DNA of 64,000 bases from Candidatus Saccharimonadota bacterium. Its GTDB lineage: Bacteria > Patescibacteriota > Saccharimonadia > Saccharimonadales > Saccharimonadaceae. The notes under the pieces were generated by a model that searched no databases, had not been told where the DNA came from, and saw nothing but the letters and a program-made list of their open reading frames with translations. A program made the translations under genes and the position numbers. The number at the start of each line of letters is the position of its first letter. Within the stretch, counting starts at the first letter, position 1. The stretch is from positions 124,001-188,000 of the forward strand of contig JAFUEB010000004.1 in the NCBI GenBank assembly GCA_017464135.1, in the 5' to 3' direction. This document shows positions 3 to 48,520 of this stretch, one piece after another.

Positions 3-476
3 CAGCCACTGGGTAGAGGACTGGTGATTGGAAATCTTACTTCGCAATTCTTTTCAAACGTTTATCTGGATTCGCTAGACCGATTTATTGAATTTGATTT
101 AGGATACCACTTCTATGGCCGATATGTTGATGATTTTTATGTTTTAGTGCGGGAAGAAGAAATCCCACAGACGAAACGGGACGTACGTGAGATTGCAACT
201 TTTTTACAAGGCATCGGTCTTACATTAAACTTCAAGAAGACAAGAATAATACCGGCATGGCAGGGCATTCCGTTTCTTGGTATGGTCGTAAAAAATGACG
301 CCGTGATACCGGGCAAGAGAATGGTGAACAATTTTTGTGAGTCATCGCGTGAGCTCGTCTCTGGAACTGGCTCTTTGGAATCTGTAATATCTTATCTTGG
401 GATGCTACATAATTATGATTCTAAGAAAGTAGTGGAAGACGTGTTCAAACAGGTTGGCTGGGAATACCGCTATTAA
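3..476 (+). CDS. Reverse transcriptase, C-terminal part, of a diversity-generating retroelement (cut by window edge)
   Basis: The reading frame is open from base 3 to the TAA at 474-476, so only the C-terminal ~157 residues of the enzyme are present. Seen: IGNLTSQFF, which fits the IGxxxSQ-type motif of DGR reverse transcriptases (group II intron enzymes usually have QGxxxSP), then the catalytic YVDD box in GRYVDDFYVL, then GLTLNFKKT and PFLGM, matching the later palm motifs. The adjacent asparagine-codon-rich template repeat at 589-783 supports a DGR rather than a retron or intron. The enzyme would copy the template RNA into cDNA with errors opposite adenines. The N-terminal palm and any accessory avd-type gene must lie to the left of the window. 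The frame stays open to base 3, so the true start is not visible. Confidence 0.85.
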   Translation, partial: QPLGRGLVIGNLTSQFFSNVYLDSLDRFIEFDLGYHFYGRYVDDFYVLVREEEIPQTKRDVREIATFLQGIGLTLNFKKTRIIPAWQGIPFLGMVVKNDAVIPGKRMVNNFCESSRELVSGTGSLESVISYLGMLHNYDSKKVVEDVFKQVGWEYRY

Positions 477-588: not shown

Positions 589-783
589 CTACTTCAGTAC
601 GCACCGTATAGCGTTCCCGTTGTTGCGGTTGTTGTTATTGGCCGGATTGACATTCGACGTATTGAGGTTCAGGTTGTACATATTCGTGTCATTGTTCCTA
701 GTAGAAGACCAGTAGTTGCCGTTTGACCCCTGATTCGCCGGAGCGGCATTGTTGAAGTTGCCAGCGAGAGCGAAAGCAGCTCC
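589..783 (-). repeat. DGR template repeat (TR)
   Basis: Read on the minus strand, this encodes the last ~64 residues of a FISUMP domain (GAAFALAG ... YWSSTR ... IRCVLK stop), but with no gene in front of it. Variable positions are nearly all AAC or AAT: the peptide contains NFNN, SNGN, NNDTN and NNNNRNNGN. That is the expected signature of a TR, since AAC/AAT codons give the greatest diversity under adenine mutagenesis without creating stops. The closest variable regions in the window are 47424-47606 and 48162-48356. The TR lies 112 bases after the reverse transcriptase stop and is in the opposite orientation. The coding-sense RNA must therefore come from a minus-strand promoter, for which 1087-1092 is a candidate. 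Confidence 0.88.
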
Positions 784-1876: not shown

Positions 1877-2992
1877 CTATTTATCGATTTCAGATGGCGT
1901 TTTGTATTTGGGATATTTATGCAGCCGCTCTTCATTATAATATTTTATATATTCTTGTAACCTCTTCCTAAGTTCCTCCTCCGAACGGAAATCATACCTA
2001 TACAGGAGTTCTTGTTTAAGCGTATTAAAGAATGATTCCATAGCCGAGTTATCTAATGGTGTGTTGGGAGTCGAGAAAGATTGCTTGAATCCGTAATGCC
2101 CGACAAGTCTTCTCATAGTATAGGATGTGAAAGCAGCGCCATTATCTGTATGTATTATCAAGCCAGGGTCCGGATGCTCCGAGACAATCGCGTCCCGTAT
2201 GGTCGCAAGTGCAAGGTTAGTACTGCAATTATGCCCACAACGAGCGGCAACTATCTTTCTGGAGCAAAGATCTAAATAGGCGCATATGTGTATGCGCCTA
2301 TTCTTTACCACTATTGATGTCATGTCACTCACCCAGACCTTGCCGGGAGATGAAATGTCAAAATGCTGTTTTAGCCTATTTACTCTTTTTTCTGCCACTC
2401 CTAATAAATAGTGCGTTTCTTTTATTCCTATCCTGCTACCAGTGATATTCAACTCACGCATGAGTTCCGATACTAATCGTTCGCTTACATGTATGCCCTT
2501 ACGCTGCAAGGCTGCACGTACTCGTCTTATTCCATATGTCCGATGGCTTTCATTAAAAACCTGCATTATTTCGTCTTTTAATTCTTTTCGTCTTTTGTTA
2601 TACCAAGCATTTTTGCCTTTGGCGCGAAGTTTGTAATTATAGAAGGTACCGGTGGGAAGAAGAAATGCCTCACATAACGTATGAACACTATAATTACCGT
2701 ATTCTCGATCTACCGCTTCTTCTTTTTCTTTGATAGACATGGACGATATTTGTATAGAAGACTGTAAGACGGCAACAATATCTTCCAGCTTCTTAATACG
2801 CCTTTTAGCTGAATCTAGATCTTTGGGAGTTACAGTTCCGAACCTTGTGCTGTATGTCCTATATTGTTTGATCCAGCGATAGAGCGTGCTCTGCTTAACA
2901 TTATATTTTGTATATAATTCTGCTGGCGAGATGCCTTTCATGTGTTCGGAGACGATTTTTCTTTTCTGTTTTTCGGTTTTACGCTTTGCCAT
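1877..2992 (-). mobile_element. IS3-family transposase, single-ORF form
   Basis: A 371-residue protein starting at MAKRKTEKQ, with AAAGGAGG just before it. Residues 1-60 form a helix-turn-helix DNA-binding region, followed by a leucine-rich coiled segment, then the HTH_21-like region and an rve integrase core. The catalytic triad is visible: Asp in VWVSDMTS, Asp in HTDNGAAF and Glu in NSAMESFFNTLK. Most IS3 elements make this protein by -1 frameshifting between orfA and orfB; here it is one continuous frame. All catalytic residues are present, so it may be active. Terminal inverted repeats could not be fixed with confidence. Confidence 0.85.
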
Positions 2993-3074
2993 GCATCCTC
3001 CTTTTCTTCCAAAATAACAGAAAAATAGTATAGGAGCATAAATATTAATAGACAATGCGGTTGCTTTTTGATAG

Positions 3075-3447: not shown

Positions 3448-6400
3448 ATGAAGTTAGGTGGTAGGAAACGAAATAGATTTCTTGATTTTGTTAGATTCCT
3501 ATTTTATTATCCAGATAGAGTTTTGATGGCTATCGTTATTTTAGGTGCTTTTTCTTTTTTTTGCTTCACAATCATTACTACTTCAAGGAAAATCAATTAC
3601 GGACGCAGAAATTATTTCTGGTGATACTGACGGTTGCTCTTTTACTTCTTCCGTTACATCCGAACATACTAAAAATATGAATCCTGGCACCACCCAAAGT
3701 GATATCGGGACAACCAAAATAACGACCAAATGTGCGAATTCTACGGATCATCAGGTTTATGCCGTGGGATATTCAAGTAATACGGATGGGAATACGAATC
3801 TAGTTAATTCATCTTCCAATACGACCATTCCTACCGGAACAGAAACGACTGGTAATATCTCCAATTGGGCTATGAAAATCGCAAAAGATAGTACCTCATA
3901 TCAACCAAACAACCTTACGATTCAGAACAGTTTTGGATCATACCATGCTGTCCCAAGCACGACAACACAGATTTCGTCGTATGCCGGCGGAACGGATAGT
4001 GCTACCGGTTCTTCTATTACTACAACTTATCGAGCCAAGCTTTCAGATTATCAGATTGCAGGAACATATGTGGGAAAAGTTAAATATACTCTCGTTGCTA
4101 CAATGGTTTATAACATCACCATTAAAACAAGCACCGGAATCTCCAAAGTTTCCCTGAACGGTATTGAATGTACCAGTACGTCCGGATGTGTTGTAACTGG
4201 GCTAACGGAAGGTGAAACATATAATCTTGTCGCTACCGTGGCAGATGGCTACGTATTTACTAGTTGGGGCAGTATCTCGAACGGATCGTTTGATAATTCA
4301 GCACTTGCCACTACTACATATACGGTAGGTGGTGGTCCGGAAACCCTCGTTGCAAACGCCATTCGCCAAATTCAGAATCTTAATTCTGAAGAATGCACTT
4401 CTACGACCAGACAAGTGATAGATGTTCGTGATAATCACATTTATACTATAAAACGTCTAAATGATGGTAACTGTTGGATGGTGGAAAACCTAGTTCTTGG
4501 CAGTACAAATCTTACTACAAATCTTACTTCTACGAATACAAATCTCTCCACTACTATTACTGCTTCCACCTTCAACGGTTGGAAGAAGACATCCGGATCG
4601 ACATCCTATATAGATGGAGCCTATATCTCAACCACAGGCACCGACGCTGTAAACGGTATAGCTTACGGCACTCTGTATAACTATTTTGCAACCACTGCCG
4701 GTACTATCTCTGGGAATCCAAATACAACTGATGCTGTTTACGATATTTGTCCTGCAGGCTGGAGGTTGCCACAGATTGGCGAGTTCCAATCTTTAAATGG
4801 GAACAGCTCGTATAATACATTTTCAAGCATGAGAGCAAAAATATCCGATGGAGGAGCTCAATTCACGCTTGCTGGTTATTTTGGTAGTGGCAATGTTGCG
4901 TCTCAGGGCGGATATGGGTATTATTGGACAGCTAACCAAAAAAGTGCAACCTATAGATACCGCATGACTATGACCAACAGTACCCAAACAGTGAATACCA
5001 ACGATTCTGGTATCAGGGTTAATGGTATGTCCATAAGATGCATCATGAAAAAAACAAAACAGACTTTAACGGTTAACTATGGCGAGGGAGTTTCGGATGT
5101 AAAGATTGATGGCACAACGATTTCTGACGGAGGGACAATTAGTTTAGAGCCGGGGGTGGCCCATGCGATTACTATGACTCCAATACTTAATTATGCTTTT
5201 TCAAGCTGGTCTGCTACTTCTGGAACAATTGGCTCAGCTAGTACTCAGAGTACTACGTACTCAATAGGAAGTTTAGGCGCAACGCTCACTTTAACCACAT
5301 CCTACAATGGCCCAAATATCCAGAATCTTCCCCAAGAAAGTTGTACTGCAACTGTCTCGAATGCGAAAGATGTGCGCGATGGCCGCGTATACACTATTCA
5401 GCGCCTTAATGACGGCAATTGCTGGATGATGGAGAATATGGATCTTGGACGCACTAATTTGACAGTTAATCTCACTAGTGCTAACACAAACATTGCTTCC
5501 ACTGTAACCGCAGCCACTTTCAATAGTTGGAGAAGTACTACCGGCAAAAACACTCAGGAACCGGTCTTTATTCCGGTAGATGGCAAAGACGGAACGTCAA
5601 AAAATCCGTATGGCACATTGTATAATGTTGTCGCAGCTTCAGCAGGGAGCGTCCTAAATAATAGCGTGGTCGATACATTCTATTATGATATCTGTCCAGC
5701 TGGCTGGAGAATGCCGACAGGTGGAAATGGCAATGAACAGAAAAATCTTTACTATACAGAACAGTACCACAGTGTAGCCCGAATGCGGGCGCCCGCCAGT
5801 GAGAATGGCGCGGCTTATTCTCTTTCTGGAACTTTTTCTGCGACCGGAGCACCAACACAAGTTGGATCATATGGATATTATTGGTCATCTACACATCGTG
5901 GCTCTGGGGCATTCTATCGCCTCGTTATTAGTACTAGTAGTGTTAACCCCGTAAATTACAATTCTTATCTTGGTGGTATGTCTGTACGCTGTTTAATGAT
6001 TAACTCAAAAACAATTTCAGATTTAACATATCTCCAAGATTTCAATGATCTTTCTGAAGATGACTATTACGATGTGCTTGACTCTATGGATAATAACACT
6101 ACCTATAGTTTAATCGACAATCGTGATAATAAATCCTATGCTATCGCAAAGCTTGCAGATGGTAGCATTTGGATGGCTGAGAATCTAGATTTGGGTCGGA
6201 CTGCACTAAGTACTGATCTATCTCCTACTAATACGAATATTAATACAACTATTCAGGCCAGTACATTTAATAGCTGGAAAAAGGATACCGGCACTAACAG
6301 TATGACTTCTGGCGAATACATTTCTGTTGACGGAACCGATTCAACTTCCGGGACGGCTTATGGAACGCTTTATAATTATTACGCCGCTACTGCTAGTTTA

Positions 6401-8449
6401 GTTACTGGTGCAACTTATGAGGGCGACGCACATTATGATATTTGTCCAGCTGGCTGGAGAATGCCGACAGGTAGCTCGTATGGTGAAGTAAACAGTCTTA
6501 TGGTTGCTTATAACAGTCAGTCTACTACCTTGCGCACACCGGTGACCAGTGGTGGCGCCTCTATTGCGCTTGGTGGCTATTTTAATTCAGCCGCCCCAAC
6601 ATACCAGGGGCAAACTGGTTATTTATGGACTTCTACGGCCAAATCTAACACCAGCTTTTATCGTTTCTTCACTGGCTCTTCGGTTAATGTCACCAATAAT
6701 GCGACGCGTGGGGCTGGTTCCTCAATTAGATGTATAGCCAAGAAGCCTACTTCAACACTTACTGTTTCTTATAATGGTACAACTTCTTCCGTCAAAATTA
6801 ACGGTACAGCTGTCCAAAATGGCGGTACTATTGTGCTCGAACGTGGTGTTAATGCCTCAATCGAGGCGACTATGGCTTCGGGGCATGTATTTGTTGCTTG
6901 GACTGCCACATCCGGTACCGTTGCTGATTCAACGATGAGCTCTTCATACTATGCGATTGGGGATACCAATGCGACACTCACGGCTTCTGGACACTACGTA
7001 AGCACTACCATCCAAAACATCGCCCAATCCAGCTGCACTTCAACTCCATCTTACGCTAGAGACTCTCGCGACGGACAAGTATACAGTATCCAACGGCTTG
7101 CGGATGGTAACTGTTGGATGATGGAAAACCTAAACCTTGGTGCAACAGATATTTCCACTGATCTTACAAAGGCTAATACAAATCTGGTCACTACAGTTAC
7201 TGCCAGCACCTTTAACAGTTGGAGAGTGACTTCTGGTACTAGCTCATACACCGTCGGTGAGTTCATAAACTCTCCTGGCACCGATACGACATCGTTAAGT
7301 AAATATGGCATGCTTTATAATTTCTATGCTGCATCTGCTGGTACTGTATCTGGTACGTCCTATGCCTCAAATGCACAATATGATATTTGTCCAGCCGGTT
7401 GGAGACTCCCGATTGGCGGCACAGGCGGTGAATTTGAAACTTTGTACGCCAATTCTTCATATAATACATATGCTAAAATGCGTGCGCCGGTAGCCAGTAG
7501 TGGTGCCGCCTTTGCTTTGGCTGGCTATATATATACTGGCTCTACGACCCTTTCTGGCAGTTATGGCTACTATTGGTCTTCGACTAGGAGCGCTGCCGGC
7601 TCGATGTATTCGATTTACTTTACTTCTTCGGCCGTAACCGCTTCTTCGGCTAGGACTCGTTTTTATAAGCAATCTATCCGTTGTGTGAGAAAGAACAATA
7701 CGGTCAATTCAATTTCGGAGCTGACATATATGCAAGACTTCAGAAATCTGACAGACGATGACATATCTGCCGTCTTTGCTTCGATGTCAGATAGCACGGT
7801 CTATACTTTGACCGATAACCGTGACAATAAACAGTATTCCATTGCTGCACTTGAAGATGGCAACATCTGGATGGCGCAAAACCTGGATCTCGGTCGTACT
7901 ACACTCTCAACTAATCTTACTAGCTCCAATACAAATCTCTCTACTACTATTACAGCTTCTACGTTTAATGGTTGGAAGACTACAACCGGCGTTGAAACTA
8001 ATACGACTGGTAAGTTTATGTTGCTCACTGGCACTGATTCAACTTCATTGAACGCTTATGGTGCTCTTTATAACTACTACGCCGCATCTGCCGGCACGAT
8101 CTCTGGCAGTACAAACAGTAGCGATGCGAGTTACGACATCTGCCCGGCTGGTTGGAGACTCCCGACTGGCGGCTCAACTGGTGAGTTTACACAGCTAAAG
8201 AATGCCAAGTACGATACTCCTGAACTATTACGTGCCCCTATCACAAATGGTGGCGCCGCATTTGCCTTTGCGGGCAGATTCTATTCGAGTTCCGCAGAAG
8301 AGCTCGGCACTGGTGGCTACTATTGGTCTAGCACCTACGGCGGAAATGACACTTATATGTACTACTTCCGTTTAGGATCGACCTATGGTTATATCTCTAA
8401 CGATGGTCAGCGCACTAGTGGCCGTTCCATTCGTTGCATTGTTAAGTGA
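3448..8449 (+). CDS. Giant five-module FISUMP surface protein 1, apparent frameshift in T8 tract
   Basis: The gene appears to start at ATG 3448, which gives an anchor peptide (RFLFYYPDRVLMAIVILGAF) like that of FISUMP protein 3. That frame is lost in a run of eight T at 3555-3562. Removing one T joins it to the long downstream frame (usable from GTG 3545), giving ~1666 residues. After the anchor comes a Cys-containing beta-rich domain, then five FISUMP modules (PF09603-like) ending near 5047, 5997, 6735, 7690 and 8446. Each carries RDxxxYxIxxLxDGxxWMxENLDLG, DICPAGWR and a C-terminal ..IRC. segment resembling the TR product. Divergent InlB-like repeats separate modules 1/2 and 3/4. Modules 3 and 5 open with an ISxLTYxQDF linker. 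It is predicted to be N-anchored and extracellular. The frameshift could be phase variation, decay or a sequencing error. Confidence 0.75.
3555..3562 (+). repeat. T8 homopolymer at the frameshift point
   Basis: Eight T lie in the codons for the membrane anchor. Seven T would restore one continuous frame from ATG 3448 through to 8449. Confidence 0.7.
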
Positions 8450-23553: not shown

Positions 23554-26500
23554 TTATCTAACTATGCATCTGACGGATGCTGGGCCGTCGCGATAAACGC
23601 CACCGGTTGAAAGAACTCCAGTCTTATCAAGTACAAACCCGTACATACTTGTCTCATAGCGGACCGTAGACGAGAAGTAATAGCCCCAGTTGCCTTGGGC
23701 GCCGGAATTAACGCCGGAGAGTGCGAATTGTGCGCCGCCATTATAAACTGGTCCGCGGATCGAGTCGTATGAAGAATTGTAGGCGAGATATAGGTTACGA
23801 TATTCACCATTATTCCCGCCAGTCGGAAGTCGCCAACCAGCCGGGCAGATATCACTGGTAGAATCGACGGTATTCTCTTCTCCAGAAATAGTTCCGCCTG
23901 TGACGGCATAGAAATTATATAGCGTACCATAGGCAATATGTGATGTAGAGTCCGTTCCACTTATAGGAACAAATTCGCCAGCGGTATAAGTATTAGTCGC
24001 CGATGTTTTTCTCCAGCCATTAAAGGTGGCAGCCGACACGGCCGTGGTCATATTAGTATTCGTGTAATTTAGGTTCACGGAAATGTCAGTTCGTCCAAGA
24101 TCTAGGTTTTCTGCCATCCAGATTCTTTCGTCTTTAAATCTCGCAACCTTGTAGGTCTTATTATCACGAATATCAATTAAGTCATAGGTAGACGTGGCAT
24201 ACATTGATTCAAGAACAGATGCTTTGGTTTCTTCAGTAAGGGTATTAAGGTCCTGCATATAAGTGTAGTCTGAGATTTTCTTCGGTTTCATTTTCGCAAC
24301 ACAACGAATTGAGAAGAGGTTAGAGCGGTTATCGCTTGTATCGGCACCAACACTGGTCTTATTCATACTGAGGCGATTTGCGAGAGTGTCGGTTTGACGA
24401 GTAGAGGACCAATAGCTAGCGAAGTAGGTGGTATATTCTGGGGTGCCAGTCCAGACGACACCCGCAAGGGCGAAGGCGGCACCGCCATTGGCGACAGTGG
24501 CCCTAAATTTATCTGGAGTGCCGTAGGCGCTATTATTATACAGTTTAATCAATTCACCATAAGGACCGCCGGTCGGGAGTCTCCAGCCGGCTGGGCAGAT
24601 ATCGTAACTGGCATTAATCGAACTATTTGCGCCTGAAATGGCGCCGGCTGAGGCAGCATAATAATTATATAGGGAACCATATGAGGTACCATTTAGCTCG
24701 TCTGTGCCACTTACATTATAAAACTCGCCTGCCGTTGTCGTGCCAGTGCCAGATGAAGTTCTCCATCCATTAAAGGTGGACGCCGTGATAGTGTTAGTAA
24801 TATTGGTATTTTCATTAGTCAGATCTGTAGTTAAGTTAGTCCTACCGAGGTCAAAGTTTTCGGTCATCCATATATTATTATCGCGCAACTTTGCAACGGA
24901 GTACGATTTATTGTCGCGATTATCGATAAGGGTGTAAGTTGTGTCGTAAGCCATAGATTTTAATAGTGAGTTATAGTCGGACATGCTTAAATTGTTAAAG
25001 TCTTGCATATAAGTCATATCGGAGATTTTCTTTGAAGTATCTAAGACGCACCTAATTGAAAGACCGGAATTACGATTATAAATATGGTCGGTGTATGGTA
25101 AGACTTCATTTGGCATAATTTTTAGATAATTATTTTTGTAAACATCCCAAGCAGTTGAACTCCAATAATAACCTTGGGTTTCTGCGAAGATTTGCCCGGC
25201 ATAGTCAAACATGCCGGAAATTGCAAAGGCGGCACCATTTTCCGAAATTGGCGCTCGCATGTTGGCGGCCGAATTATAGTATGTATACAGATTCTGAAAC
25301 TCGCCGGCGGCACTACCAGTTGGGAGACGCCATCCAGCCGGGCAGATATCCTGCGTTGCATCGTTGTTGTTTGAAGTGCCAGAAATCTCGCCGGCAGTGG
25401 TTGCGTAGAAATTATACAATACGCCATAGTCAATTCCGGCGACAGAATCAGTGCCCGAAGTAACCAAAAACTCGCCATTATCATAGAGCGCACTGCCATT
25501 ACCTTCATCGGCAATTTTCCAACTATTGAATGTGCTGGCAGCAAGAGTACCGGTAATATTAGTATTTGCACTGGTGAGATTTGTGGAAAGAGTAGTTGCG
25601 CCAAGTGCGAGGTTTTCCGCCATCCAGATTTTGCCGTCTTTAAGTTTAGCTACATTGTAAACTTTGCTGTCACGATTATCGGTGAGTTGATAGGTTTGCC
25701 CTTCAAACATACTAGTGGCGACTTCGGCTTTTTCTTCATTTGAGAGAGTGGCAAAATCTTGCATATAGGTCAGGTCGGAAATCGCTTTTTGATCAAGCAC
25801 ACAACGAATGGAGGCGCCAGTCCTACGGTTCACTGTACTTGCATCATTTGCGCCGGTTGAGAACGTAATTAGGTATCGCATATTCGTATTTGATGAACGC
25901 GTGGAAGACCAGTAATAACCATTGCCGTTAGGGTTTACGGTTGTACCATTAAAGCTGCCCGTCATGCCAAAGGCTGCACCGCCTAGGGCAAGTGGCGCTC
26001 TAATCTTTGCATAATCTACATAGGCATCAGTGATTACGCCGAGCTCGCCTGCAGAACCGCCGGTCGGGAGACGCCACCCAGCTGGGCAAATATCATAGGT
26101 CGAATTATTGGCATTAGAAGACCCAGAAATAGTGCCGCCACTAGCCGCATAAAAGTTGTAATAGGTGGCTTTTGGTATATTGGATGATAGCTCTATACCC
26201 TCTACTGGCACTACTACGCCGGCGCTATAGTCGGCAGTTGGCGAATTCGTAATCCAGCTATTGAAAGTGGATGCTGTAACCGTAGTAGATAGGTTTGAGT
26301 TTGCACTCGTTAAATCAACCGTGAGATTGGTTGATCCTAGATTCAGGTTTTCCATCATCCAGCATTTACCATCGGCGAGACGTTTTACAGTATAAACTTG
26401 GTTGTCACGAATGTCTTTATACTTTGCTGGTGTAGTTGTACAGCTTTCCGGTTCAAGATTTTGGATGGCATTTCCAGTGAACACGGCACCGTTAGCAGTA

Positions 26501-28377
26501 AGCGTCGCATTTGATGTACCGATAGTATAAGTTGTGAATTGTTCACTAGCTGAATCGATTGTGCCCGAAGTAGCAGTCCAGTTATTAAAGTCATAATTCT
26601 TATTGAATAATACTTTGATTGGCAGCGGGAAGCCCTCCTCAGCTACAACCGTGCCGGAGTTCGCGACGAGGTCGCCGTTAACGTAGACGGCTTGGACGCC
26701 GGTGCCATAACTAATTGTAAGTGTGTGGGCTGGTTTCTTTCTAATACAACGGATTGAAATGCCAAGCGTGCGATAATCGGAATCGCCTAGGTAAACCGCT
26801 GGTTCTTCAATCACGACTGGTTCTTCAGTAGCATCCGTGATATACAACTCCTGCATCATGACATCAAATTGAGCAGCGGTCCACAAACTTGAGGTTGCGA
26901 CCGTTGAAGCCCAATATATTCCTGATAATCCATTACCTTCTGGCGCAGATTGCGCGAAAGCACCCGAAAGTGGGTAGGCTAAACCGCCACTGGATTCTGG
27001 TGCACGCATATTGTTGAACGAATCGTGATAGGCATAAACAGTGGCAAACTCGCCACTGGTGCCGCCAGTTGGCATTCGCCATCCGGCCGGGCAGATATCG
27101 TTCACGGCGTTGTTGGTATTTGTATACCCAGAAATTGTACCGGCTGAGGCGGCATAAAAATTATATAGTGTGCCATAAGGAACGTTTGATACCGGATCGG
27201 TACCAGTTACGGGTATTAATTCACCAGCACTAACCGTCCAGCCACCAGTTTGCTTAATCCAGCCATTAAATGTTGAATATGAAAGCGTTGAGGAGATATT
27301 AGTGTTTGTTGACGTCAAATCTGCAGTTAGAGTAGTGCGTCCTAGATCTAGATTTTCCATCATCCAACACCTACCATCTTCAAGGCGTTTGACTTGGTAA
27401 ATTCTTTCATCGCGAGTATCAATGGCGAGGCTGGCGGTGGTTGTACAATTGGCATCACTGAGGTTTTGGATATTTGGGCCGCTAAACAACCCTGTTGCCG
27501 TTAAGGTAGCGTCGGCGGATGTTATTATGTAGGTGGTTGAGGCCGAACTAGCGGAAGCAATTGTGCCCGTAGTAGCAGCCCAACTCGGAGTTGAGAAATT
27601 TGCCTCTGTCGACATAGTGATTGGATATGAGACGCCGACAATGAGCTTAACGGTTTCACCATTTGTAACTGGCGTGCTACCAATGGTTACCCCGGTCACG
27701 TGCGGGCCGTAATTAATCGTAAGAATTGCCGTTGGTACGGTATTAGCAACGGCTTCAAGAATAAAATTATCATTAATGTAGCTGCCGGATGGGAGCGAAG
27801 AATCCGCTCTTGCGCCTAGTGAGATGGTGTAGTTTTTGGCAGTACTATTGGCGACTGAGGTTTGATCAAGTGTTACGGCTGTAGTGGAAGAACCAAAGTA
27901 TCTAGTGTTTTCTTCGGAATTATAGAAACTTGGTTTGTAACCCCAGCGGTTATTAAGGGTGGTATTGTTGGCGTTGCCAAATTGTTCGGCTGTAACTCCA
28001 GACACCAGGGAAGCGAACGAACCAGCGACGCCTTTGTCGAGCGTAGTCTTCGTACTGCGGGCGGTCAATCTGTAACCGGTATAGTTAGTAGTGGAAACTG
28101 AGAAGGCAATGTCACCAGCGCCTGAGGTAGTTTCAAATACACCAGTCATAGTTGGGTCAATCGTAACCGTGGCGGAATTCTTGCTAGATGTCATCGTAAT
28201 AGTCGAATCGCCGGTTAGGTCAATTAATGCTTCTACACCAACTTGCGTTCTAGCAAATGGCAGGAGAAAACCAATGGCGAGAATAATGATTAGGGAATAA
28301 AGACTGAGGACCGAAAGCCTCCGGATTTTGTAAAATTCGGATAGTTTCATCCCTCCTTTTTTATTTCTCAAAAACAT
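23554..28377 (-). CDS. Giant five-module FISUMP surface protein 2
   Basis: A 1607-residue protein from ATG 28377 (GAAGG 2 bases upstream; ATG 28350 sits right behind an AAGGAGGG). Residues 23-42 form a membrane anchor or signal helix (SVLSLYSLIIILAIGFLLPF). A beta-rich N-terminal domain differs from that of proteins 1 and 3 and instead resembles the start of the 48727 protein. Five FISUMP modules follow. The first two carry RLxDGxCWMMENLxLG after a divergent InlB-like repeat; the last three open with ISDxTYMQD. Each has DICPAGWRxPTGG and ends xRCV/xRCI. C-terminal segments are aligned with the TR product but are less similar to it than those of protein 3. No LPxTG signal is present. Likely an extracellular binding protein. 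Confidence 0.88.
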   Translation of the reverse strand: MFLRNKKGGMKLSEFYKIRRLSVLSLYSLIIILAIGFLLPFARTQVGVEALIDLTGDSTITMTSSKNSATVTIDPTMTGVFETTSGAGDIAFSVSTTNYTGYRLTARSTKTTLDKGVAGSFASLVSGVTAEQFGNANNTTLNNRWGYKPSFYNSEENTRYFGSSTTAVTLDQTSVANSTAKNYTISLGARADSSLPSGSYINDNFILEAVANTVPTAILTINYGPHVTGVTIGSTPVTNGETVKLIVGVSYPITMSTEANFSTPSWAATTGTIASASSASTTYIITSADATLTATGLFSGPNIQNLSDANCTTTASLAIDTRDERIYQVKRLEDGRCWMMENLDLGRTTLTADLTSTNTNISSTLSYSTFNGWIKQTGGWTVSAGELIPVTGTDPVSNVPYGTLYNFYAASAGTISGYTNTNNAVNDICPAGWRMPTGGTSGEFATVYAYHDSFNNMRAPESSGGLAYPLSGAFAQSAPEGNGLSGIYWASTVATSSLWTAAQFDVMMQELYITDATEEPVVIEEPAVYLGDSDYRTLGISIRCIRKKPAHTLTISYGTGVQAVYVNGDLVANSGTVVAEEGFPLPIKVLFNKNYDFNNWTATSGTIDSASEQFTTYTIGTSNATLTANGAVFTGNAIQNLEPESCTTTPAKYKDIRDNQVYTVKRLADGKCWMMENLNLGSTNLTVDLTSANSNLSTTVTASTFNSWITNSPTADYSAGVVVPVEGIELSSNIPKATYYNFYAASGGTISGSSNANNSTYDICPAGWRLPTGGSAGELGVITDAYVDYAKIRAPLALGGAAFGMTGSFNGTTVNPNGNGYYWSSTRSSNTNMRYLITFSTGANDASTVNRRTGASIRCVLDQKAISDLTYMQDFATLSNEEKAEVATSMFEGQTYQLTDNRDSKVYNVAKLKDGKIWMAENLALGATTLSTNLTSANTNITGTLAASTFNSWKIADEGNGSALYDNGEFLVTSGTDSVAGIDYGVLYNFYATTAGEISGTSNNNDATQDICPAGWRLPTGSAAGEFQNLYTYYNSAANMRAPISENGAAFAISGMFDYAGQIFAETQGYYWSSTAWDVYKNNYLKIMPNEVLPYTDHIYNRNSGLSIRCVLDTSKKISDMTYMQDFNNLSMSDYNSLLKSMAYDTTYTLIDNRDNKSYSVAKLRDNNIWMTENFDLGRTNLTTDLTNENTNITNTITASTFNGWRTSSGTGTTTAGEFYNVSGTDELNGTSYGSLYNYYAASAGAISGANSSINASYDICPAGWRLPTGGPYGELIKLYNNSAYGTPDKFRATVANGGAAFALAGVVWTGTPEYTTYFASYWSSTRQTDTLANRLSMNKTSVGADTSDNRSNLFSIRCVAKMKPKKISDYTYMQDLNTLTEETKASVLESMYATSTYDLIDIRDNKTYKVARFKDERIWMAENLDLGRTDISVNLNYTNTNMTTAVSAATFNGWRKTSATNTYTAGEFVPISGTDSTSHIAYGTLYNFYAVTGGTISGEENTVDSTSDICPAGWRLPTGGNNGEYRNLYLAYNSSYDSIRGPVYNGGAQFALSGVNSGAQGNWGYYFSSTVRYETSMYGFVLDKTGVLSTGGVYRDGPASVRCIVR

Positions 28378-45800: not shown

Positions 45801-48356
45801 ATGAATTTAGATGTTGCTAAACAGACTAGATTTGGAAAACTGATTTTATTTTTACGCTTTTATCCGGAGAGAATACTAACCGGTTGCGTTTTGGTGCTTA
45901 CTCTTATTTCCGCTATGAGCATGGGGTTATCTTCGGACGGCTTTGCCATCTTGGGCACGGATTTAATTTCTGGCAATTCCGAGAGCTGCTCTTTTTCCTC
46001 AACCGTTACATCCGCACATACCACTAACCTTAGTCCGGGTGGTTCTGCTGAGAATATCGGTTCCACCAAAATCACGACGATATGCCCGAATTCCGTGGAC
46101 CATCAGGTATACGCAGTTGGCTATACGAATGACACAACAGGTAACACAGACCTTATTAGCTCTGATAATAATACCATTCCAACCGGCACTGGAACCGGAA
46201 ATGTCTCAAACTGGTCCATGAAAATCGCAAAAGACACGACGTCCTATTCTCCAGCAAATCTTACAATTGATACCGGGTATGACGCTTATCATGCTGTTCC
46301 GGCAACCACTGCCAGAATCGCGTCTTATACTGGTGGGACAGACAGCACGACCGGTTCTGCTGTGCTAGCGACATACAAAGCAAAGGTTTCGGATTCACAG
46401 TCATCCGGGGCTTATACTGGAAAAGTGAAATTCACTTTAACTGCTACCATGCTATACAGCGTGACCATCGCCACCACGGCGGGAATAGCAAAAGTATCAC
46501 TAAACGGCGTGGAGTGCACAACTACTGCTGGGTGTACCGTAGCAAATCTAACATCCGGACAATCATATGCGCTGGTGGCGACTCCGGCCAGCGGCTCATC
46601 TTTTGTGCGTTGGAATCCCGGCCAAAACGGAACGTTAGCGAGCGCGACATCCGCCAGCACAACTTATACTGTGGGGGATGGGAGTAGTCTCATTACCCCT
46701 ATTGCGGAACTGAGTACCAGTACGCTGCAAATCCAATATGGCACAGGCGTTGCCAGCATGACTGTAAACGGAAATGCTGTGACAAATAACGGAACCGTGA
46801 ATCTATCATATGGTACGCCGTTAAACATCAGCGCAACTCTGAATCCGGGATATAGTCTTTCTGATTACACATTTACACCGCTTAGCGTGACGAGCTCGAG
46901 GATTGCCGCCAATGCTTCGTTTACCGGCACCTACATGCAGAACCTCGATGCCTCCGGCTGTACTACTACCGCAAGAACCGTTTTTGATAGTCGTGACAAC
47001 CATGCCTATATTATCCAACGTCTCGCGGATGGAAACTGCTGGATGATGGAGAACCTGGATCTGGGCAGAACCACGCTCACTACAGACCTTACCAGCGCTA
47101 ACACCAATCTTTCTACCACGGTAACTGCTTCCACCTTCAATGGATGGAAGAAAACATCTGGTTCACAAACGTATACTGCCGGTGAATTTATCAATGTTTC
47201 TGGCACGGATGCTACTTCAGGTACGGCATATGGAACATTGTATAACTACTGTGCTGCTTCTGCTGGAACTATCTGTACGAGCTCCAACAGTAGTGATGCT
47301 TCATATGACATCTGTCCAGCCGGATGGCGTCTTCCAACCGGCGGTAGCTCCGGAGAATTTCAAACCCTTTACACGCAGTATAATTCAAATGCCCTTATGA
47401 GAGCACCAATCGCAAGTGCCGGTGCTGCCTTCGCTCTCGCTGGCTACTTCTATCATAGTACTCCGGCCAATCAGGGTAGCTACGGCTTCTACTGGTCTTC
47501 TGCCAGGAGCAATGACGCGAATATGTACGGCCTGTTCCTCGGTTCGAGTGTCAATCCGGCCAGTAGCAACGAACGATACTACGGGCGCTCTATCCGTTGC
47601 TTGCTGAATGAACCGCCTACCATTTCAGACCTCACCTATATGCAGGATTTTAATGGTCTCTCTGCAGACGACAAAGCCTCCGTCCTAGCCTCGATGGAGG
47701 ACAGCACCACCTATACTCTCATAGATAACCGTGATAATAAATCCTATGCCATTGCCAAAATGAAAGACGGCAGAATCTGGATGGCGGAAAACCTGGATCT
47801 CGGTCGCACTACTCTAACCACAGATCTCACATCTGCCAATACTAATATCGCTACCACCGTTACTGCTGCTACCTTCAATGGATGGAAGAAAACATCTGGT
47901 TCACTAACGTATAATGCCGGTGAATTTATCAATGTTTCTGGCACGGATGCTACTTCCGGTACGGCATATGGAACACTGTATAACTACTATGCCGCATCTG
48001 CCGGTACTATCTCCGGAAGCTCCAACAGTAGTGATGCCTCATATGACATCTGTCCAGCCGGATGGAGACTTCCAACCGGTGGATCATCTGGAGAATTCCA
48101 AGCCCTTTATGCCGAATATAATTCCAGCGCTCTCATGAGAGCACCAATTGAAAATAATGGAGCTGCTTTCGCTCTCGCTGGCCGCTTCCTCAATAGTACT
48201 CCGGCCAGTCAGGGTAGCATCGGCAACTACTGGTCTTCTACGAGGGGCAATGACGCGAATATGTACGGCCTGTTCCTCTATACGTCGAGCGCCAGTCCGG
48301 CCAATCACGACGGTCGCTACTGCGGGTACTCTATCCGTTGCTTGCTGGGTAGTTAG
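45801..48356 (+). CDS. Two-module FISUMP surface protein 3, likely DGR target
   Basis: An 851-residue protein. An N-terminal anchor (RFYPERILTGCVLVLTLISA) resembles that of FISUMP protein 1, followed by the Cys-containing beta-rich domain, two InlB-like repeats (residues ~215-380) and two FISUMP modules (46930-47606 and 47625-48356). The modules share nearly identical DNA in their frameworks, so they arose by recent duplication. Their C-terminal segments, aligned with the TR, differ at 18 amino-acid positions, and 17 of these are codons that contain A in the TR. Module 1 carries an unusual Cys pair (YNYCAASAGTICTSS) where module 2 has Tyr and Ser. The gene ends in the segment most like the TR and shares a 14-base downstream motif with it. 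Confidence 0.9.
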   Translation: MNLDVAKQTRFGKLILFLRFYPERILTGCVLVLTLISAMSMGLSSDGFAILGTDLISGNSESCSFSSTVTSAHTTNLSPGGSAENIGSTKITTICPNSVDHQVYAVGYTNDTTGNTDLISSDNNTIPTGTGTGNVSNWSMKIAKDTTSYSPANLTIDTGYDAYHAVPATTARIASYTGGTDSTTGSAVLATYKAKVSDSQSSGAYTGKVKFTLTATMLYSVTIATTAGIAKVSLNGVECTTTAGCTVANLTSGQSYALVATPASGSSFVRWNPGQNGTLASATSASTTYTVGDGSSLITPIAELSTSTLQIQYGTGVASMTVNGNAVTNNGTVNLSYGTPLNISATLNPGYSLSDYTFTPLSVTSSRIAANASFTGTYMQNLDASGCTTTARTVFDSRDNHAYIIQRLADGNCWMMENLDLGRTTLTTDLTSANTNLSTTVTASTFNGWKKTSGSQTYTAGEFINVSGTDATSGTAYGTLYNYCAASAGTICTSSNSSDASYDICPAGWRLPTGGSSGEFQTLYTQYNSNALMRAPIASAGAAFALAGYFYHSTPANQGSYGFYWSSARSNDANMYGLFLGSSVNPASSNERYYGRSIRCLLNEPPTISDLTYMQDFNGLSADDKASVLASMEDSTTYTLIDNRDNKSYAIAKMKDGRIWMAENLDLGRTTLTTDLTSANTNIATTVTAATFNGWKKTSGSLTYNAGEFINVSGTDATSGTAYGTLYNYYAASAGTISGSSNSSDASYDICPAGWRLPTGGSSGEFQALYAEYNSSALMRAPIENNGAAFALAGRFLNSTPASQGSIGNYWSSTRGNDANMYGLFLYTSSASPANHDGRYCGYSIRCLLGS
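47424..47606 (+). repeat. DGR variable region 1 (module 1 of FISUMP protein 3)
   Basis: Aligned with the TR, AAC/AAT codons are replaced by TAC, TAT, CAT, TTC, AGC, GGC, GGT, CGC and others, while flanking codons such as CTCGCTGGC, TACTGGTCTTCT and AATATGTAC are kept. One codon (ACG in the TR) is missing. A few non-adenine differences (for example GCCGCT against AGTACT) are shared with variable region 2, so the immediate template may be another TR copy. Confidence 0.75.
48162..48356 (+). repeat. DGR variable region 2 (module 2 of FISUMP protein 3)
   Basis: By hand alignment to the TR about 26 template adenines are changed (AAC to CGC, CTC, ATC, GGC, TTC, CAC, GAC, TAC, TGC) against about 13 changes at other bases. 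It ends at the gene's stop codon, as expected for a C-terminal variable region. Confidence 0.8.
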
Positions 48357-48372
48357 CCTTTCCGCTGTCTTC

Positions 48373-48386
48373 CTTCCCCGTACTCG
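48373..48386 (+). other. Downstream flank motif shared with the TR locus
   Basis: CTTCCCCGTACTCG, identical to the minus strand of 541-554, 16 bases after the stop codon. See that entry. Confidence 0.5.
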
Positions 48387-48520
48387 AACCCGGAATGGAG
48401 CGCCCTAAGCCTCAAGCGAAGGGATATTTGCTTCTGAGCTCATACTATGAAAAGTGATAAATTGACAAAATATCACTTTTTGTATTTAGCATTTTACATT
48501 ATTCTAAAAAATATATCGCC

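Follow-up and report, generated by a model that had tools for sequence, protein, structure and literature searches.

The variable segments VR1 and VR2 of an 851-aa FISUMP protein from gut Saccharibacteria are very probably DGR target sites, which lie in old tandem paralogues and were probably written from a sister or an ancestor of the TR now present in the genome and in addition reshaped by recombination between the modules. In DGRs the RT misincorporates at adenines when copying the TR RNA, and the cDNA replaces the VR DNA. The window, i.e. the whole stretch of DNA that was analysed, comprises 64,000 nucleotides and corresponds to positions 124001-188000 of contig C2 in assembly G000 (668,675 bases in four contigs, estimated to be ~72% complete). 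Positions without contig label refer to the window, and contig labels without genome refer to G000. All sequences compared are single consensus assemblies, and P-values were computed with sites taken as independent. The target locus is composed as follows:

45801..48356 (+): 851-aa target protein with two FISUMP (Fib_succ_major) modules, detected by Pfam and NCBIfam matches
46971..47609 (+): FISUMP module 1 (internal), framework 25% diverged from module 2
47421..47606 (+): VR1, differing from the TR at 27/56 TR-A and 20/133 non-A sites, one codon deleted
47706..48353 (+): FISUMP module 2 (C-terminal), AlphaFold2 model with pLDDT 97 and C-type-lectin-like matches
48159..48347 (+): VR2, differing from the TR at 28/58 TR-A and 16/134 non-A sites

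The N-terminus of the target protein contains a hydrophobic, signal-like segment, and a full-length orthologue with 76.6% identity is encoded in genome G131. FISUMP modules are numerous in G000 (~45) and are gathered in few very large proteins of up to ~3850 aa; within the window, FISUMP proteins are located at 3545-8449 (+), 23554-28377 (-) and 45801-48356 (+). Only seven of the ~45 modules possess VR DNA that can be traced to the TR, and the remaining ones look like older, diverged modules. When these other modules were compared with the present TR in 29 tests, adenine bias was mostly non-significant, with a few weak cases such as C2:131058 (P~9e-4) and C2:147563 (P~2e-4), both uncorrected for the number of tests.

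The DGR cassette is cut by the left edge of the window and consists of the following elements:

C2:120774-122237: cognate target with one FISUMP module
C2:122355-123320: accessory protein, 321 aa, whose modelled C-terminal bundle is Avd-like
C2:123313-124476, C-terminal part at window 3..476 (+): DGR RT, 387 aa, with YVDD catalytic motif and GLVIGNLTSQ stretch
592..783 (-): TR, 192 nt, non-coding, with 21 AAC/AAT codons, matching seven VR modules of the genome

The RT matches PF00078 (E=5.8e-11) as well as the reverse transcriptase family phrog_1423 (E=3e-65). Its best solved relative is the DGR RT in 8ub7 (E=1.5e-19), which by its title belongs among the DGR ribonucleoprotein entries. The nearest named relatives are from Candidatus Saccharibacteria of the goat gut and share at most 72% identity. 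A scan of viral contigs detected no RT relatives of viral origin, and a viral source of the RT was rejected on this basis. The TR is located on the strand opposite to the RT, ~115 nt past the RT stop codon. An IS3-type transposase-like ORF, classified by appearance, is present at 1877-3055 (-), ~1.1 kb beyond the TR. The assembled genome yielded one TR, seven VRs and one DGR RT, and no second TR was found in it; the G000 assembly may be missing a second DGR. A further RT, a 331-aa ORF at C3:66443, was discarded as a candidate, as it lies outside the cassette and is unlike a DGR RT in appearance. The genus is rich in relatives of the DGR RT, of which several genomes carry two to four, accompanied by different TRs. 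Genomes G128, G131, G136 and G143, the latter being 98% complete, contain similar VRs with no RT detected.

The accessory protein produced no Pfam or NCBIfam match and no sequence match, and a Foldseek search retrieved no match at E<=0.001, neither for the accessory model nor for the model of the FISUMP module. The accessory model comprises a C-terminal four-helix bundle (residues 205-315, pLDDT ~90), which resembles Avd chains with Z 14.1 over 108 residues (8ub7_C) and Z 13.9 (4dwl). As helical bundles easily reach high Z scores, unrelated ones from Z ~11, this likeness provides support at the level of the fold, at which the accessory may be regarded as a putative Avd-type protein. On its N-terminal side, the Avd-like bundle is joined to an alpha/beta domain (residues ~65-175) in a fusion protein. 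The accessory occurs beside many RTs of the genus, without family match; two relatives with stops and a few others were left out of its alignment.

The action of the present TR can be read from its cognate VR, which deviates from the TR at 26 of 56 adenine sites and at none of the 133 non-A sites (P=1.1e-16). The VRs at C4:120068 and C4:130422 exhibit 23 A and 1 non-A mismatches and 24 A and 5 non-A mismatches, respectively. This adenine pattern is the DGR signature. Genome G136 carries a cassette fragment nearly identical to the cassette of G000. In this pair, which compares the cognate gene between two species and not VR1 and VR2 within a population, the VRs differ at 30/58 TR-A sites and at 1/134 non-A sites (P=9e-29), while the flanks differ at 4/116 sites upstream and 6/456 sites downstream (10/572 in total). 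The G136 locus (L133, G136:C6:28001-31709) has lost 2.39 kb comprising RT, TR and the larger part of the accessory gene; the deletion is joined at a TATTATA-like stretch found at both ends, and the cognate target is kept along with its mutated VR. This loss is apparently recent.

Next to these cases, VR1 and VR2 were compared with each other in a codon alignment with the TR. In line with what had been read from the sequence alone, the C-terminal segments of the two modules differ almost only where the TR has an adenine, namely at 26/56 TR-A sites versus 9/133 non-A sites (Fisher P=1.2e-9). Within AAC/AAT codons of the TR, the two VRs differ at 10/20 first, 12/20 second and 2/20 third positions. 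Nine of these codons are changed differently in VR1 and VR2 and six are changed in one VR only, three carry the same change in both and two are unchanged. Most changed AAC codons now encode Tyr, Gly or Ser. The sequence-only reading had counted 18 amino acid differences, 17 of them at adenine codons, and had missed a 3-nt deletion in VR1. Since VR1 is short of one codon, the tally depends on placement of the gap and amounts either to 17 substitutions and a codon deletion, or to 18 substitutions when the gap is shifted. The earlier count is therefore about right in number and wrong in detail. With the gap as chosen here, ~15 substitutions fall on AAC/AAT codons and the others on ACT, on ACG and on one GTC codon (Val/Ala).

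The same reading had portrayed the modules as recently duplicated, with near-identical framework DNA. However, their frameworks differ at 117 of 465 nt (25%), including 64 of 155 third positions, and at 34 of 155 amino acids. A recent duplication was rejected because of this divergence, and near-identity exists in patches only: identical runs of 42 and 34 nt are embedded in the 22-25% diverged module pair (shuffle P=0.0028). At their non-A sites, the VRs diverge less (9/133) than the modules do in the framework (117/465; P=5.8e-7), and modules 1 and 2 of the G131 orthologue show the same contrast (10/134 non-A sites versus 115/465 framework sites). VRs that are alike at non-A sites and scrambled at A sites, within old repeats, are the outcome when one template is copied repeatedly.

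A mutated 32-nt block (GCAATGACGCGAATATGTACGGCCTGTTCCTC) with identical changes, among them ACG to GCG, AAC to GGC and AAC to TTC, is common to VR1 and VR2. Their TR-A states are identical over a run of 13 sites (P=1.5e-4 versus independent draws), in a test that assumes equal mutation odds at every TR adenine; this is untrue and a simplification, as adenines outside AAC/AAT codons mostly change less. In other VR pairs, runs of identical TR-A states comprise at most 8 sites. These observations point to movement of sequence between the two modules. Mutagenic retrohoming acting independently on both modules, as proposed earlier, holds in its main part: retrohoming is strongly supported by the RT, the TR, the Avd-like accessory, the cognate VR with its 26 A and 0 non-A mismatches, and the G136/G000 cassette pair. 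As to independence, the nine codons changed differently in each module support separate histories at these positions, but the shared mutated block and the near-identical framework patches show that VR1 and VR2 are not fully independent. Taken together with the codon missing in VR1, the shared block indicates that template copying acted jointly with exchange between the modules.

Another multi-module protein is encoded at G000:C4:128709-132767, and its orthologue in G128 is represented by L131/L135. Here, module 1 is 4.7% diverged and modules 2 and 4 are 21-25% diverged, which suggests module-wise transfer between species. The VR of module 1 is nearly the same in both genomes (2/58 A and 1/134 non-A differences); this may simply reflect recent exchange, given that the module is only 4.7% diverged overall.

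Both VR1 and VR2 show an excess of mismatches at adenines of the present TR (P=3.4e-6 and P=1.3e-7, respectively), accompanied by 20 and 16 non-A mismatches. The latter argue that the present TR was not their direct template, a role that had been ascribed to the TR in the window. Moreover, these non-A differences recur in other modules. VR1, VR2, C4:132123 and C4:129693 have in common AGT ACT in place of GCC GCT, GCC in place of GCG, and GGT or GGC AGC in place of GGG TCA; three of the four also have TCT ATC in place of GCT ATA. The first group, forming the core of these differences, is shared by all three VRs of G128. At the corresponding places, the TR of G015, which accompanies the closest other RT (72% identical), reads AAT AGT ACG, GGC AGC and AAC TCT. 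From these shared states we infer that the template of VR1 and VR2 was probably either a sister of the present TR or an ancestor of it. A search of 174 genomes of the genus with a 189-nt reconstruction of the sister template as query retrieved no exact case, the nearest sequence being the G015 TR. In the G131 orthologue the two VRs belong to the present-TR type, unlike those of the window protein, and C4 module 2 is of the present-TR type while the orthologous G128 module 2 is not. Judged by these states, orthologous modules carry different template types between species.

The sequences following the VRs were also inspected. A stretch of ~60 nt beyond the VR is common to the cognate VR, to C4:120k and to the TR; after this shared flank, an inverted repeat (GCGCCCTT/AAGGGCGC) follows the cognate VR only and is absent from the TR. 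Downstream of VR2, the following feature was recognized by eye:

48357..48435 (+): degenerate copy of the cognate VR 3' flank (CTTCCCCGTACTCGA ... CCCTAAGCCTCAAGCGAAGGG), hairpin weak by energy

By folding energy, a conserved stem-loop was not significant (z -1.1); in phage BPP-1 the stem-loop helps and is not strictly required (PMC12875486). Downstream of VR1, inspection by eye revealed no IMH-like flank or hairpin. Because VR1 is internal and lacks the cognate 3' flank, direct retrohoming into VR1 is less certain and would be one possible route.

According to the model that we favor, the RT together with its Avd-like partner would copy the TR RNA with misincorporation at adenines, and the cDNA would replace VR DNA in FISUMP modules. 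These modules would be old tandem paralogues whose frameworks drifted to 75% identity; overwriting from one common template would have kept the non-A bases of their VRs alike and left the A sites scrambled. A sister or ancestral template would have written VR1 and VR2, as judged from AGT ACT for GCC GCT, AGC for TCA and TCT ATC CGT for GCT ATA CGG, and the present TR would have written some other VRs of the genome. Recombination between modules would then have copied patches, including the 32-nt block in VR1 and VR2. That one RT-TR cassette serves many modules, that the modules of the genome record successive templates and that internal modules without IMH/hairpin take part as well is an extension whose chances we regard as evenly balanced. 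A layered record of this kind could arise within one genome as the template changes with time or through exchange between species, and internal modules lacking an adjacent IMH/hairpin could join either through retrohoming directly into them or through recombination with terminal modules as the source.

Recombination could in principle account for more than patches. If it acted among the ~45 FISUMP modules, VR1 and VR2 might have received pre-mutated segments with no retrohoming taking place at these sites, a scenario that we consider rather unlikely. It fits the framework mosaic with its 42- and 34-nt identical runs, the mutated block shared by VR1 and VR2, and VR1 lacking the 3' flank that is found after the cognate VR. 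However, no donor is present in the assembly, where runs of matching TR-A states between VR1 or VR2 and other VRs comprise at most 6 sites; donor modules could be missing, as the G000 genome is incomplete. In addition, shuffling still requires a DGR to generate the A-only pattern. Such a DGR is dispensed with if ordinary diversifying selection, free of any template, altered the binding face after duplication. The varying residues are indeed located in the C-terminal lectin-like part, where binding residues are expected, but this explanation is extremely improbable and was rejected on the basis of codon positions and of the G136/G000 cassette pair: third positions of varying codons are nearly fixed (2/20) compared to 64/155 in the framework, the cognate VR has mismatches at adenines exclusively, and the cassette pair separates A from non-A sites at P=9e-29.

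The remaining question concerns the template. The present TR might itself have written VR1 and VR2, with the shared non-A differences arising later or representing old sequence that was not replaced. TR and VRs share most non-A bases, and replaced tracts can vary at their 5' ends, which would accommodate this possibility. Nonetheless, it is improbable: the same non-A differences occur in four modules at two places of the genome and partly in G128, they are situated at both ends of the VRs and in the middle, and the next closest TR (G015) has the AGT/AGC/TCT states. A sister or ancestral template, combined with module recombination in old paralogues, is the explanation that we retain.

The system resembles the DGR of Bordetella phage BPP-1 (bRT, Avd, TR, VR, IMH, stem-loop) in its related RT sequence (8ub7), the Avd-like bundle, the adenine-directed changes, the AAC-rich template, and in sequence common to TR and VR beyond the VR end, followed by an inverted repeat on the side of the cognate VR only. 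It is unlike BPP-1 in residing in a cellular Saccharibacteria genome with several remote targets and FISUMP modules, in the position of the TR, which lies downstream of the RT and on the other strand, and in fusion of the Avd-like part to an N-terminal alpha/beta domain. Several VRs per protein, remote targets diversified in trans and unequal VR activity have their counterparts in Thiohalocapsa PB-PSB1 (PMC10907252), from which the present case differs in host, in target architecture and in template turnover that can be read across species. In Treponema denticola, the VR of remote target SP32 likewise agrees more closely with a different template type than with the TR found in that genome, and was interpreted as the remnant of an earlier DGR (PMC4891356); here, by contrast, one genome contains several modules belonging to both template types. 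Fib_succ_major domains are also DGR targets in human microbiomes (PMC4159848), where, in the available part of that report, they are given as domain counts without tandem modules or template lineages. DGRs of the Candidate Phyla Radiation, multi-VR targets, remote targets and leftover VRs have all been described (PMC8144416, PMC10907252, PMC4891356), and a search of the available literature found no paper joining DGR and 'FISUMP'. The kind of DGR is already known, and the additional interest is the readable template turnover. The locus provides a natural example, clean and quantified, of a DGR at work in gut Saccharibacteria: in the closest cassette pair, adenine-directed rewriting is observed nearly without background change, and in orthologous proteins VRs switch template type from species to species. 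It opens tests of the access of a DGR to many targets and of the turnover of templates, in hosts that are small-genome bacteria and probably dependent on surface contacts with other cells.

Finally, the fold of the module bears on what diversification may achieve. The best structural match of the module model (pLDDT 97) is the C-terminal domain of Legionella Lcl (Z 7.3), followed by C-type lectins at Z ~6 (6.1), both being below the caution level of Z 8. The expected product of the DGR would be a binding face of lectin-like type with changes at Asn codons, and the likely effect a varied ligand face of C-type-lectin-like domains in a secreted or surface protein. For BPP-1, a bias towards Tyr and Ser was reported (PMC12875486), with which the outcomes of AAC codons seen here (Tyr, Gly and Ser) partly agree.
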